This document shows, in pieces, positions 36,882 through 57,234 of a DNA stretch of 64,000 nucleotides. Under the pieces are notes generated by a model. It was not told the origin of the DNA. It was given only the letters and a program-made list of their open reading frames with translations, and ran no database searches. The DNA lies in the NCBI RefSeq assembly GCF_000400485.1, contig NZ_ASHR01000025.1, positions 1 to 64,000 on the forward strand. The letters run 5' to 3'. Origin of the DNA: Agrococcus pavilionensis RW1 (lineage in GTDB: Bacteria > Actinomycetota > Actinomycetes > Actinomycetales > Microbacteriaceae). Position numbers and translations under genes: made by a program. Every line of letters starts with the position of its first letter. Within the stretch, counting starts at the first letter, position 1.

Positions 36882-38333
36882 TCAGCCCTCGTAGGGCGGC
36901 GGCGGTGCCCCGTAGGGCGCGCCGCCGAAGGGCGTGCCCGCCGGCGGGATCGCCGGGGCGCCCCCGTCGCCCGGGCCCATGCCCGGCGCGATGTCGGCGA
37001 ACCGCGCGAGGTGGCCGTGGAAGGCGACCGGGATCGTCTTCGTCGGGCCGCCGCGGTGCTTCGCGACGATGATGTCGGCCTCGCCGGGCCGGATGTCGCG
37101 GTCGTAGGCGTCCTCGCGGTGCAGCAGCATGACGATGTCGGCGTCCTGCTCGATCGAACCCGACTCGCGCAGGTCGCTGATCGCCGGCTTCTTGTCGCCG
37201 CGCTGCTCGGGGCCGCGGTTGAGCTGCGAGAGCGCGATGACCGGCACCTGCAGCTCCTTCGCGAGCAGCTTGAGCGAGCGGGAGAACTCCGAGACCTCCT
37301 GCTGGCGCGACTCGACCTTCTTGCCGCTCGTCATGAGCTGCAGGTAGTCGATGACGACCATCCGCAGGCCGGCCTGCTGCTTGAGGCGGCGGCACTTCGC
37401 GCGGATCTCGACGAGCGTGAGGTTGGGGCTGTCGTCGATGTAGAGCGGCGCGTCGTTGATGCGGCCGCGCACTTGCGCGAGCGTCGTCCAGTCGCGCCCC
37501 TCGATCGCGCCCTTGCGCAGCTTCTGCAGCAGGATGCTCGACTCGGCCGAGAGCAGCTTCATCGCGATCTCGGTGCGGCCCATCTCGAGCGAGAAGAAGA
37601 CCGACGGCAGGTCGCCCTTGATCGAGCACGCGCGCACGAGGTCCATCGCGAGCGTCGACTTGCCGATGCCGGGGCGCGCGGCGATGACGATCATCTGACC
37701 GGGGTGCAGGCCGTTCGTGAGCTCGTCGAGCTCGCGGAAGCCGGTCGGCACGCCCGTCATGACGCCGTCGAGGCCCTTCGCCGCCTCGATCTCCTCGATC
37801 GCTGCCTCGACCGCGAGGCTCAGCGGCACGTAGTCCTCGGCCTGGTCCTCGCCCATGACCGAGTAGATCTCGGCCTGCGCGTGGTTGACGAGGTCGGTGA
37901 CCTCGCCCTCGGAGGCGTAGCCCATCTGCACGATGCGGGTGCCGGCCTCCACGAGGCGACGCAGCACCGCCTTCTCGGCGACGATCTCGGCGTAGAAGCC
38001 GGCGTTCGCCGCGGTGGGCACCATCGACGTGAGCGAGTGCAGGTACTGCACGCCGCCGGCGCGCGAGAGCATGCCCGTCTTCGTCAGCTCGTCGCTCACG
38101 GTGATGACGTCGGTCGGCTCGCCGCGCGAGTAGAGCGAGAGGATCGCCTCGTAGACGATCTCGTGCTTCGGCTGGTAGAAGTCGCCGCCGCGCACCGTTT
38201 CGAGGCAGTCGGCGACCGCGTCCTTCGAGAGGAGCATGCCGCCGATGGCGGACTGCTCTGCGAGCAGGTCGTGCGGCGGGGTGCGCTCGCTGTACCGGCT
38301 CTCGTCGAGCCCGATCTCTGCCAGGTCGGTCAC
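36882..38333 (-). CDS. dnaB: Replicative DNA helicase DnaB
   Basis: 483 residues from GTG 38333, which has GGAAGGAG just upstream; the frame extends further but without a better start. The N-terminal helical domain (PPHDLLAEQSAIGGMLL), Walker A ARPGIGKST (about 222-230), Walker B VVIDYLQLM, the arginine-finger region and a Gly/Pro-rich C-terminal tail are all present. No intein interrupts it. DnaB unwinds DNA at the replication fork and is loaded at oriC after DnaA. The upstream region has DnaA-box-like sites and shares a rare element with oriC. Confidence 0.97.
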   Translation of the reverse strand: MTDLAEIGLDESRYSERTPPHDLLAEQSAIGGMLLSKDAVADCLETVRGGDFYQPKHEIVYEAILSLYSRGEPTDVITVSDELTKTGMLSRAGGVQYLHSLTSMVPTAANAGFYAEIVAEKAVLRRLVEAGTRIVQMGYASEGEVTDLVNHAQAEIYSVMGEDQAEDYVPLSLAVEAAIEEIEAAKGLDGVMTGVPTGFRELDELTNGLHPGQMIVIAARPGIGKSTLAMDLVRACSIKGDLPSVFFSLEMGRTEIAMKLLSAESSILLQKLRKGAIEGRDWTTLAQVRGRINDAPLYIDDSPNLTLVEIRAKCRRLKQQAGLRMVVIDYLQLMTSGKKVESRQQEVSEFSRSLKLLAKELQVPVIALSQLNRGPEQRGDKKPAISDLRESGSIEQDADIVMLLHREDAYDRDIRPGEADIIVAKHRGGPTKTIPVAFHGHLARFADIAPGMGPGDGGAPAIPPAGTPFGGAPYGAPPPPYEG

Positions 38334-38677
38334 GCTGCTCCTTCCGGTTCGATCGTCTCGCGGGCGGCCCACACGGACCGATCGGTCGGAGCCTGCCCCA
38401 GGCTAGGAGCGCGTCGTCGGCTCAGCGAATCCTGCTGTGGACAACCGTGTGGAGAGCTGGGGACAACGCCGGGACTTGACAGCCTCGACACGCCTCTCCC
38501 CTGTGCACAGATCTGTGGACTTCGATCGTGGAAAGCGTCGAAACCCGCCTCTGACCGGCGGTTTCGCTTTGCACAGGACGTGGGGAGAAAGCGGGTTGAA
38601 GTACACGTTGAGACTTCCAGCGCTTCTTCAGGTTCGCTTGAGAGCCGGGGTCCCGCATCCGTCTCCTCGATGCACGA
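38334..38677 (-). promoter_or_regulatory. dnaB upstream region with DnaA-box-like sites
   Basis: 344 bases without a gene. The minus-strand -10 TAGCCT (38405-38400) lies about 65 bases before the dnaB start. Upstream of it is the perfect DnaA box TGTGGACAA (38436-38444), plus looser ones at 38448, 38458 and 38514, all in the same orientation. At 38597-38618 is a 22-bp element, with GAAGT and ACTTC arms, that is repeated in oriC with one mismatch. DnaA control of dnaB expression is plausible; a local initiation or titration site is the alternative. Confidence 0.65.
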
Positions 38678-38727: not shown

Positions 38728-39180
38728 CTACTTGGCCGCGACCACCTTGAGCGAGATCGTCGCGACGATCTCGTCGCGCAGGCGCGCGGTCGCCTGGTGG
38801 TCGCCCACCGAGCGGATCGGCGTCGGGATCTCGATGACGCGCTTGTCGATCGAGCCGTGACCGGCCGCCTCGACCGCCTCGGCGATGTCCTTCGTCTGGA
38901 TGGAGCCGAAGAGGCGGCCCTCGGAGCCGGCCTTCGCCTTCAGCGTGACGACGTTCGCCTCGAGGCGGGCGCGGAGGTCCTGCGCCTCCTCGATCGTGGC
39001 GTGCTCGCGCGCGGCGCGAGCTGCCTTGATCTGGTCGACCTGCTTCTCGCCGCCGCGCGACCACGCGACAGCCAGGCCCTGGGGCACGAGGTAGTTGCGG
39101 GCGAACCCGTTCTTGACCTCGACGACGTCACCAGCGGAGCCGAGGCCGGAGACCTCGTTCGTGAGAATGAGCTTTGCCAT
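38728..39180 (-). CDS. rplI: 50S ribosomal protein L9
   Basis: 150 residues with the L9 N-terminal domain ([34 protein letters not shown]), a long central helix and a C-terminal domain ([16 protein letters not shown]). It binds 23S rRNA near L1. Last gene of rpsF-ssb-rpsR-rplI and followed by a terminator. Confidence 0.98.
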
Positions 39181-49708: not shown

Positions 49709-49729
49709 TTCTCCACAGTTCTCCACAGG
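49709..49729. repeat. Tandem TTCTCCACA pair, copy 1
   Basis: Two direct TTCTCCACA 9-mers ten bases apart (49710 and 49720), close to the DnaA-box consensus TT[AG]TCCACA. The same 21-base unit recurs at 49872. Confidence 0.6.
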
Positions 49730-49871
49730 TCCGCGATCGCTGCAAGCGCGCACGCTGTCGATTCCCTCATCCTCGGCCGCGCTCATCCATGGTCCGACAT
49801 CCCAGTCATAGCGCGGAATCCGACGCGATGTGGCGGCGATCGAGGGCGAAGACGAACAACGTTCACAATCC

Positions 49872-49892
49872 GTTCTCCACAGTTCTCCACAG
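49872..49892. repeat. Tandem TTCTCCACA pair, copy 2
   Basis: Exact second copy of the 21-base unit at 49709, 163 bases downstream, between parS sites 1 and 2. Possible DnaA titration or regulatory sites. Confidence 0.6.
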
Positions 49893-55597: not shown

Positions 55598-55655
55598 CAG
55601 AGTGCCGGAACTCTGCCCTCAGCGCGCCCGAGATGCGCAGAGTGCCGGAACTCTG
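55598..55655. repeat. Twin 18-bp palindromes in oriC, 40 bp apart
   Basis: CAGAGTGCCGGAACTCTG at 55598-55615 and again, identical, at 55638-55655. Each is an inverted repeat CAGAGT-N6-ACTCTG. The exact 40-bp period suggests paired protein binding on one face of the helix. They begin about 95 bases past the dnaA stop, so they could also be terminators. Confidence 0.7.
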
Positions 55656-55691
55656 CGCTTGCGGGCGATTGCGCACGGCGCCATAGCACGA

Positions 55692-55713
55692 GGAAGTCTC
55701 AACGCGTACTTCA
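55692..55713. repeat. 22-bp element shared with the dnaB upstream region
   Basis: Arms GAAGT (55693-55697 region) and ACTTC flank a 10-base centre, CTCAACGCGT. The copy at 38597-38618 is inverted and differs at one central base. It lies just before the DnaA boxes. Confidence 0.7.
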
Positions 55714-56091
55714 TGTGATTCGGATGTGGACGGCCCGGGCGTGCCTGTGGACAACGGGACCGAGAGCTGTGGACGGAGCCCGGGGACGCATCCCTCGCTC
55801 TCCACGACCCGTGGATGGGCGTCAACAGCGGCTCAACATCTTGCACTGTTGTAGTTCCCTCGCGGGGAGCGAGAACCACACGTTCCATCCCCAGCTTGCA
55901 CAGCGGTTATGAATGACAGAGATTCCTAGAGAGAAGATGCAGCTCGTCGCCAACCATGACGGGTCGGCGGCGGAGGGATGCCACGGCTCGACCGCGTCGC
56001 GGCTGTGCCACAATCGACAGCGCTGTGCACCAGCACGGGCGGCTGCCGCCGTGCCCCAGCGCCGCAGCTCGCCCAAGAAGGAGGACGCCCG

Positions 56092-57234
56092 GTGAAGTTC
56101 GTCATCAATCGCGATGTCTTCAGTGATGCCGTCTCGTTCGCCGTGAAGCTGCTGCCGCAGCGGCCGACGATGCCGATCCTGAGCGGCGTGCGCATCGAGT
56201 CGACCGCCGATGGCGTCATCTTCTCCTCGTTCGACTTCGAGTCGTCGGCGCGCACCGCGGTCGCCGCCGATGTCGAGGCCGAGGGTGTCGTGCTCGTCTC
56301 GGGTCGCCTGCTGAGCGACATCGCGGCGAAGCTGCCGCAGCGCGAGGTGCGGGTTGAGGACGACGGCTCGAAGGTGCTCGTCCGCTGCGGCAACGCGCAG
56401 TTCTCGCTCGCGAAGATGCCGCTCGAGGAGTACCCGACGGTGCCGACCGTCGAGGGGCGCACGGGCGTCGTCGAGGGCAAGGCGTTCTCGGAGGCCATCG
56501 GCCAGGTCGCGATCTCCGCGTCGCGCGAGGACGTCACGCCCGTCATCACCGGCGTGCAGCTCGAGGCGAGCGACCACACCCTGACCCTCATCGCGACCGA
56601 CCGCTACCGCGTCTCGGTGCGCAGCATCCCGTGGGACGCCGGCGACGTCACCGAGGCGCTCACCTCGCTCGTGCCGGCGCGCACGCTCGTCGAGGTCGGC
56701 CGCACCTTCGGCAGCGCCGAGCGCATCGAGATCACCATGAGCGAGGCGGGGGAGCGGCAGCAGATCGCCTTCTCGACCGCCGATCGCACCGTCACGAGCC
56801 TGCTCATCAAGGGCAACTACCCGCCCGTGCGGCGCCTCTTCCCCGAGCAGGTCGACCACCACGCCGTCGTGAACACCGCCGAGCTCGTCGACGCCACGCG
56901 GCGCGTGCAGCTCGTGCTCGACGCCGAGGCGGCCATCCGCTACACCTTCAGCGAGGGCCAGGTGCAGCTCGAGGCGATCGGCTCCGAGCAGGCGCAGGCC
57001 TCCGAGATCATCGACGCGGTGCTCGAGGGCGACGACATCGTGCTCTCGATCAAGCCGCAGCTGCTCATCGACGGCATCCAGGCCACCCACTCCGAGTTCG
57101 TGCGCGTCTCGTTCACGCACTCCGAGAACACGAACAAGCCGGGCCCCATGCTCATCCGCGGCCAGACGTCGCGCGACGACGCCGAGGCGAGCGACTTCAA
57201 GTACCTGCTGCAGCCCAACCTGCTGCTGCGCTGA
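56092..57234 (+). CDS. dnaN: DNA polymerase III sliding clamp (beta subunit)
   Basis: 380 residues with three repeated clamp domains, starting MKFVINRDVFSDAVSFAVKLLPQRP and ending with the family C-terminal LLQPNLLLR-like region. AAGGAGG lies about nine bases before GTG 56092. The clamp tethers the polymerase to DNA. Its length is typical. Confidence 0.98.
   Translation: MKFVINRDVFSDAVSFAVKLLPQRPTMPILSGVRIESTADGVIFSSFDFESSARTAVAADVEAEGVVLVSGRLLSDIAAKLPQREVRVEDDGSKVLVRCGNAQFSLAKMPLEEYPTVPTVEGRTGVVEGKAFSEAIGQVAISASREDVTPVITGVQLEASDHTLTLIATDRYRVSVRSIPWDAGDVTEALTSLVPARTLVEVGRTFGSAERIEITMSEAGERQQIAFSTADRTVTSLLIKGNYPPVRRLFPEQVDHHAVVNTAELVDATRRVQLVLDAEAAIRYTFSEGQVQLEAIGSEQAQASEIIDAVLEGDDIVLSIKPQLLIDGIQATHSEFVRVSFTHSENTNKPGPMLIRGQTSRDDAEASDFKYLLQPNLLLR

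Follow-up and report, generated by a model that had tools for sequence, protein, structure and literature searches.

A conserved FtsR-type putative operator beside DnaA boxes at oriC and upstream of dnaB in Agrococcus

Two copies of a 22-bp element lie in the 64,000-nucleotide stretch of the Agrococcus pavilionensis RW1 genome analysed here ("the window"), one in oriC and one upstream of the replicative helicase gene dnaB. Both are probably operators of FtsR, the MerR-family activator of ftsZ in Actinobacteria, and FtsR would then link cell division to helicase supply and to the origin. The identity of the motif, its conservation, position and orientation, and the presence of an ftsR gene can be read from the sequence. 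On that evidence the two copies represent a site of known type in a new and telling location – a conserved, FtsR-type putative operator at dnaB and at oriC. Coordinates are given in Table 1.

Table 1. Coordinates of the two elements, the neighbouring genes and the DnaA boxes in the window
Feature	Position	Strand	Remarks
oriC copy, putative FtsR-type operator	55692..55713	+	dnaA-dnaN intergenic region, sense to dnaN; 20-nt core 55694-55713
dnaB-upstream copy, putative FtsR-type operator	38597..38618	-	between rplI and dnaB, sense to dnaB; 20-nt core 38597-38616
dnaA	53841..55502	+	TIGR00362, 520.6 bits (cut-off 343.9); longest ORF, true start may be internal
dnaN	56092..57234	+	TIGR00663, 246.4 bits (cut-off 137.65)
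dnaB, replicative helicase	36882..38333	-	from GTG of VTDLAEIGLDESRY; start chosen by conservation
rplI (L9), upstream neighbour of dnaB	38728..39180	-	TIGR00158, 130.4 bits (cut-off 58.6)
DnaA boxes 3' of oriC operator	55725..55776	-	55725 (2 mismatches); 55746-55754 TTGTCCACA (exact); 55768 (2 mismatches)
DnaA boxes between operator and dnaB	38436..38466	-	TTGTCCACA 38436-38444 (exact); TTGTCCCCA 38458-38466 (one mismatch)
DnaA-box-like sequences, degenerate inverted pair immediately 3' of dnaB-upstream operator	38571..38590	-	TTTCTCCCCACGTCCTGTGC; genus alignment, weak box at 38581

The oriC copy reads GGAAGTCTCAACGCGTACTTCA on the plus strand and the dnaB-upstream copy GGAAGTCTCAACGTGTACTTCA on the minus strand. 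The sequence at 55692–55713 and the reverse complement of 38597–38618 are identical at 21 of 22 bases, the sole difference being a central C/T, and an earlier note on this DNA had described this inverted repeat correctly in both coordinates and sequence. The pattern GAAGT-N10-ACTTC has two matches in the whole 2.88-Mb genome, the oriC and dnaB-upstream copies, and is absent from 100 of 100 shuffles of the window; there is no scatter of the exact form over unrelated loci in its own genome, in line with the earlier note. An exact scan of a contig database for the 22-mer, with C or T at the variable base, gave two matches, both in Agrococcus lahaulensis, in a search from which records close to the window's own genome were possibly excluded.

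The chance of a 21/22 repeat had been put as very small, and this was too strong. In the window, 22-mer repeats that differ at no more than one base form 17 clusters (8 direct and 9 inverted, the oriC/dnaB pair included), and such abundance would suit a chance or recently duplicated repeat of no function. The oriC/dnaB pair stands out from the rest by its conservation in other species and by its match to an independently learned motif. Both copies are conserved in related species in the same orientation and rank high in conservation among the 20-nt windows of their respective regions, and a motif learned by expectation maximization (EM) from ftsZ upstream regions ranks them first and second in the window. 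The chance-repeat reading was rejected because of the conservation of both copies, despite the 17 clusters, and is scarcely credible.

The neighbouring genes are those first proposed: DnaA, DnaN, L9 and DnaB all score above the NCBIfam cut-off, the match of DnaB to TIGR00665 being 507.7 bits (cut-off 385.25; scored on the longer ORF 36882–38372). The DnaA box has the consensus TTRTCCACA. There are three exact boxes in the window, two of them in the oriC and dnaB-upstream regions (at 55746 and 38436), and weaker boxes with two mismatches, at 55725 and 38581, are nearer to the two copies; both copies do lie beside DnaA boxes. In the genus alignment six bases separate the dnaB copy from a downstream inverted pair of DnaA-box-like sequences, which corresponds to TTTCTACACACANGGTGTGG in other members of the family. 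The oriC core abuts TGTG in all 18 aligned genus sites (TGTGGA in G005, G011 and G022). DnaA-box clusters outside oriC are known in B. subtilis, and the DnaA-box-like sequences upstream of dnaB form a similar cluster; unlike those of B. subtilis, this one is coupled to an FtsR-type site at an almost constant distance.

With both copies adjoining DnaA boxes, and the dnaB copy standing at nearly fixed spacing to the inverted pair across the family, the element could be a structural component of these arrays: a sequence related to DnaA or assisting it, for which no regulator of its own would be required. This is quite improbable, as a like motif is found at ftsZ and upstream of mcdR (neither of which was searched systematically for DnaA boxes) and the element itself departs from TTRTCCACA at 4 of 9 positions at both copies. 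The same mismatches led to rejection of the DnaA box as the identity of the element.

The genus set comprised 24 genomes, of which 23 gave a dnaN place and 24 an rplI place; G019 had no DnaN match, and rplI of G011 is split across two contigs. When no more than one mismatch was allowed, the core YTCAAYGTGNACTTNA was found in 18 of 23 oriC regions and, after rplI, in 21 of 24. Across species the genus core is YTCAAYGTGNACTTSA, with a left arm of AACCY, AACTY or AAGTY, and the conserved part of the element is AA(C/G)NYTCAA-N5-ACTTCA. GAAGT is a local variant: the GAAGT and ACTTC arms to which the earlier note drew attention are present in both window copies but are confined to the closest species, as GAAGT-N10-ACTTC occurs anywhere in 7 of the 24 genomes and at both places only in G000, G010 and G015.

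With a matrix built from ftsZ sites, p <= 0.01 was reached in 17 of the 23 oriC regions of the genus and, after rplI, in 21 of 24 (G001 oriC, p 0.015). The oriC site is degenerate in 5 of the 23 regions; G018 and G023 keep a degenerate site in the alignment, and the oriC regions of G007, G008 and G013 have, by eye, something like the right half only. In these last three genomes rplI is not followed by dnaB. The displaced dnaB lies ca. 20 kb (G007) and ca. 15 kb (G013) from rplI and has a degenerate element upstream, again before the DnaA-box pair: AAGTCTCCACGTGGACTG in G007 and AAGTCTCGACGTGCACTG in G013, with matrix scores of 7.8 and 6.4, given without p values. Since the element is kept upstream of the displaced genes, it belongs to dnaB rather than to rplI. 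In total, all 23 genus genomes in which that region was found have the element upstream of dnaB, two of them in degenerate form; G008, with dnaB beyond the 32-kb stretch taken, is left out of this count. Both copies are kept in sister species and in the same orientation (18/23 at oriC, 23/23 at dnaB), as the earlier reading had required. Among separated 20-nt windows ranked by conservation, leaving aside G007, G008 and G013, the one around the element is second at oriC (20 genomes) and third at dnaB (21 genomes).

A DnaN tree is compatible either with a single basal gain of the oriC site in the genus and a loss in the G007 clade, or with two gains. Support at the fork that decides between these is weak (84/68), the tree was rooted for display only, and the program warned of long branches. 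G007, G008 and G013 also have a palindromic repeat around GTCTCGTGAC in the oriC region (L042–L044) and after rplI (L067–L069). Repeats with the same centre occur elsewhere in the G007 and G008 stretches, and the 10-mer is absent from the window. This repeat may be linked to the rearrangement that separated dnaB from rplI.

Outside the genus, the best 48 of 87 dnaB places and the best 48 of 88 oriC places in the family were analysed. One dnaB region was dropped from the matrix scan (G067, where the contig ends after rplI), leaving 47, and a second from the composite test described below (G066, no dnaB after rplI), leaving 46. All but three of the oriC regions (G044, G102 and G100) were anchored on dnaA, and in G102 and G100 the record ends within the region. 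A matrix from 23 genus ftsZ sites, at p <= 0.01, found a site in none of the 48 oriC regions and, the region of G066 without dnaB included, in 23 of the 47 dnaB regions.

A composite of the half-site and CACA 27–43 nt downstream was found in 40 of 46 family dnaB regions, against a Markov mean of 1.8 (maximum 7), 2 on the opposite strand and 7 in the reversed sequence; without a mismatch it was found in 32 of 46, against a mean of 0.1. The half-site and CACA criteria were picked after viewing the same alignments, and the shuffles give a background rate rather than a blind test. The majority sequence of the composite is AACCYTCAAC-N4-RCTYTARACATGTTTCTACACACANGGTGTGG. The exact form of G000, with up to two mismatches, is found in 9 of 299 family genomes, four in the genus and five others. 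In a class-wide scan (29 of 87 places), 27 loci were outside the family, and only two of these had dnaB within 1.5 kb of rplI, both without the site; one (G128) of the two family loci in that scan had no dnaB near rplI. As judged from these alignments, the putative dnaB site and its DnaA-box pair span the family (40/46), and the oriC site is seen in the genus but in none of the 48 oriC regions of other genera.

The connection to FtsR comes from ftsZ. A relaxed pattern has only three places in the genome of the window – dnaB, oriC and a site ca. 20 nt before ftsZ – and the same three in G003, G009, G012 and G015. In six genomes of other genera, the pattern is found at dnaB and at an ftsZ-type place in three (G029, G044 and G071), at dnaB only in one (G102), and at ftsZ only in two (G052 and G060). 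Among ftsZ upstream regions of genus and family, 64 of 69 have a site with at most six mismatches to a 24-nt consensus; regions were taken from 70 of 71 genomes (G041 left out), and the region of G019, cut to 59 nt, was not usable.

Because this 24-nt consensus was derived from sites resembling the window elements, unseeded EM was run on the ftsZ upstream regions of 46 genomes of other genera, using no oriC or dnaB sequences. Earlier EM runs on ftsZ regions had converged on the ftsZ coding start (first run) and on a promoter-like stretch before ftsZ (second run). Motif 1 was promoter-like, and the operator was motif 2, obtained after masking: TCAACTNGAGGTTGAAAGTT (reverse complement AACTTTCAACCTCNAGTTGA). 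Scored over the window, in a ranking given without resample controls, motif 2 has its highest score at the dnaB copy (19.6 bits), followed by the oriC copy (11.6 bits) and then by a place at 9.9. Motif 3 also ranks dnaB first, and the oriC copy is outside its five best. With a matrix from 41 ftsZ sites of other genera, dnaB was at rank 1 and oriC at rank 2 at widths of 20, 22 and 25 and at rank 3 at width 16. At width 20, the dnaB score of 19.8 was beaten in 0 of 60 order-1 resamples of the window and the oriC score of 12.6 in 2 of 60 (maximum 14.8), so the oriC score alone is unconvincing.

The arm forms AACCY, AACTY and AAGTY are common to the ftsZ, dnaB and oriC sites, and the half-site AA(C/G)NYTCAA is found in the ftsZ, dnaB, oriC and mcdR sites. 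The second half-site is ACTTCA, ACTTGA or AGTTCA in the genus and RCTYTA in the family, and is weak at oriC and dnaB.

According to the report on FtsR (PMC6683498), FtsR is a MerR-family activator of ftsZ, and its operator is a 25-bp inverted repeat with the half-site AACCCT(C)AA / TTGAGGGTT. The C. glutamicum operator, AACCCTAAAGTAAAGGTTGAGGGTA, lies at -61 to -85 of ftsZ and is supported by ChAP-seq and EMSA, and AACtCTAAgcctAtGGTTGAGGtTt was proposed for M. tuberculosis (PMC6683498). That report describes nine strong ChAP-seq peaks in C. glutamicum, none of them assigned to dnaB or the origin (PMC6683498). The ftsZ site in the genome of the window matches the C. glutamicum and M. tuberculosis operators at 18 and 20 of 25 positions, and no place in the window is as good. 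The window copies match the C. glutamicum operator at 14 of 25 letters, as 13 places in the window do equally well, and the M. tuberculosis string at 12–13 of 25, with 87 (oriC) and 374 (dnaB) equally good places. It is by way of the family's own ftsZ sites that the copies are connected to FtsR.

The copies resemble the FtsR operator at ftsZ (C. glutamicum Cg1631; M. tuberculosis Rv1828) in the AACCCTCAA-type half-site, set in a putative imperfect inverted repeat of 20–25 bp, and the genome encodes FtsR and has its own ftsZ copy of the site. They differ in location, as they lie next to DnaA boxes in oriC and in front of dnaB, and in the weaker second half-site. The earlier note knew of no described element of this sequence, a view that is overtaken by this resemblance to an operator class already described.

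The ftsR gene is on contig C37; its product scores 247 bits against NF050798 (cut-off 150), and the C-terminal part of the protein is similar to the solved Rv1828 (5ydc, E 9e-9). The gene order is FHA protein – ftsR – mcdR. The MerR gene adjoining ftsR is here called mcdR, presumably the Rv1830 orthologue; this orthology comes from gene order, no family model gave the gene a name, and the case for its product as the binder of the element depends on it. A site of the class was found upstream of mcdR in all 11 genomes in which the gene was found, with best scores of 17.7–28.2, given without p values; G005 and G009, where the gene was not in the stretches taken, are excluded from the count. An FtsR-type site, AACACTCAACCTCACCTTGAAGGTT, lies directly upstream of mcdR at about 3307–3335 of L208. 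mcdR may be under the control of FtsR or of McdR itself.

These sites would also suit McdR/ResR (Rv1830 type), the MerR paralogue beside FtsR, which would regulate its own gene and bind at ftsZ, dnaB and oriC as well. In M. smegmatis, overexpression of McdR is reported to raise the mRNA levels of dnaB and dnaN and also the copy number of DNA close to ori (PMC9040748), effects that fit such a role. McdR is nonetheless unlikely to be the binder. Its operator is alike as a MerR-family site tied to division and to dnaB/dnaN expression, but differs in sequence: the published motif AATnACAnnnnTGTnATT has 6 (oriC) and 5 (dnaB) mismatches at its 12 specified bases, 966 and 140 places in the window, respectively, are equally good, and it was rejected as the identity of the element. 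In addition, the FtsR report describes an experiment that ties the ftsZ operator of this class to FtsR (PMC6683498).

Several other identities were scored against the element and rejected. The ParB site parS, TGTTTCACGTGAAACA, gave 6 (oriC) and 9 (dnaB) mismatches of 16. An MtrA-type string misses only 2 of 9 positions, yet 288 places in the window are equally good, and WhiB-type strings gave no convincing fit.

A census of the window's own genome, with up to three mismatches to AASYYTCAACSTNNASTTSA, gave 22 rows against 11 in a reversed control. The best rows were dnaB and ftsZ (no mismatches), oriC (one), mcdR (two, on both strands) and C30:10486 (two), the last just behind an isoprenyl transferase-like gene, as judged by eye. 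In G003, G006, G009 and G012 the zero-mismatch places were ftsZ, dnaB and oriC only. In G022, among the matches listed, there were 42 rows against 29 in the control, with at least seven rows elsewhere that have one or two mismatches and equal its oriC and ftsZ sites. A site for a shared regulator at oriC and dnaB, as first proposed, is well supported, but the element is not specific to replication genes, since a like motif is found in the ftsZ promoter and upstream of mcdR. The coordination of origin firing with helicase supply, also proposed in the earlier note, is a hypothesis.

Taken as FtsR operators, these sites suggest a mechanism. A dimer of FtsR would recognise AA(C/G)NYTCAA and a weaker opposite half-site (ACTTSA or RCTYTA), and its four main targets in the genus would be the ftsZ promoter, the mcdR upstream region, the dnaB upstream region by the inverted DnaA-box pair, and oriC by the DnaA-box array. 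Binding at the oriC and dnaB copies would follow the precedent at ftsZ. FtsR would set the level of FtsZ, and co-regulation of division and replication genes is likely. At dnaB the site is ca. 260 bp upstream of the start and separated from it by DnaA boxes, which makes the classic MerR twisting of the promoter unlikely; modulation of transcription jointly with DnaA is the better guess. At oriC, FtsR might act on dnaN transcription, or help or hinder the assembly of DnaA. A link from FtsR to mcdR would connect both regulators to replication. The direction of these effects, and any role in initiation, we infer.

A broader reading, tentative and on balance doubtful, is that FtsR controls replication directly in the family, as a regulator of the cell cycle that binds ftsZ, the dnaB control region and the Agrococcus origin, with one signal for the Z-ring, the helicase and origin firing. 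If so, the composite of FtsR site and DnaA boxes upstream of dnaB would be a meeting place of a division regulator and DnaA. The matching of division to replication in actinobacteria is little understood. The FtsR report calls knowledge of division control in these bacteria rather limited and describes FtsR as a regulator of ftsZ (PMC6683498), and no mention of FtsR together with dnaB, or with oriC, was found in the open-licence PMC literature. The sites beside DnaA boxes, at dnaB in the family and in oriC in the genus, are a concrete candidate for a wire between division and replication.

A few other sequences were observed near these features. Two copies of TTCTCCACAGTTCTCCACA, a tandem of DnaA-box-like 9-mers, are found 164 bp apart at 49709–49891, ca. 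4 kb before dnaA; the two ORFs tested over this tandem had no Pfam match. The sequence CCGGTCAG follows the DnaA-box pair upstream of dnaB (38551–38558, minus strand), and CCGGTCA is present in all 21 aligned genus rows with dnaB after rplI, and in G007 and G013. An imperfect palindrome, CAGAGTGCCGGAACTCTG, has two copies 40 bp apart (55598–55657) after the dnaA stop and before the oriC operator.
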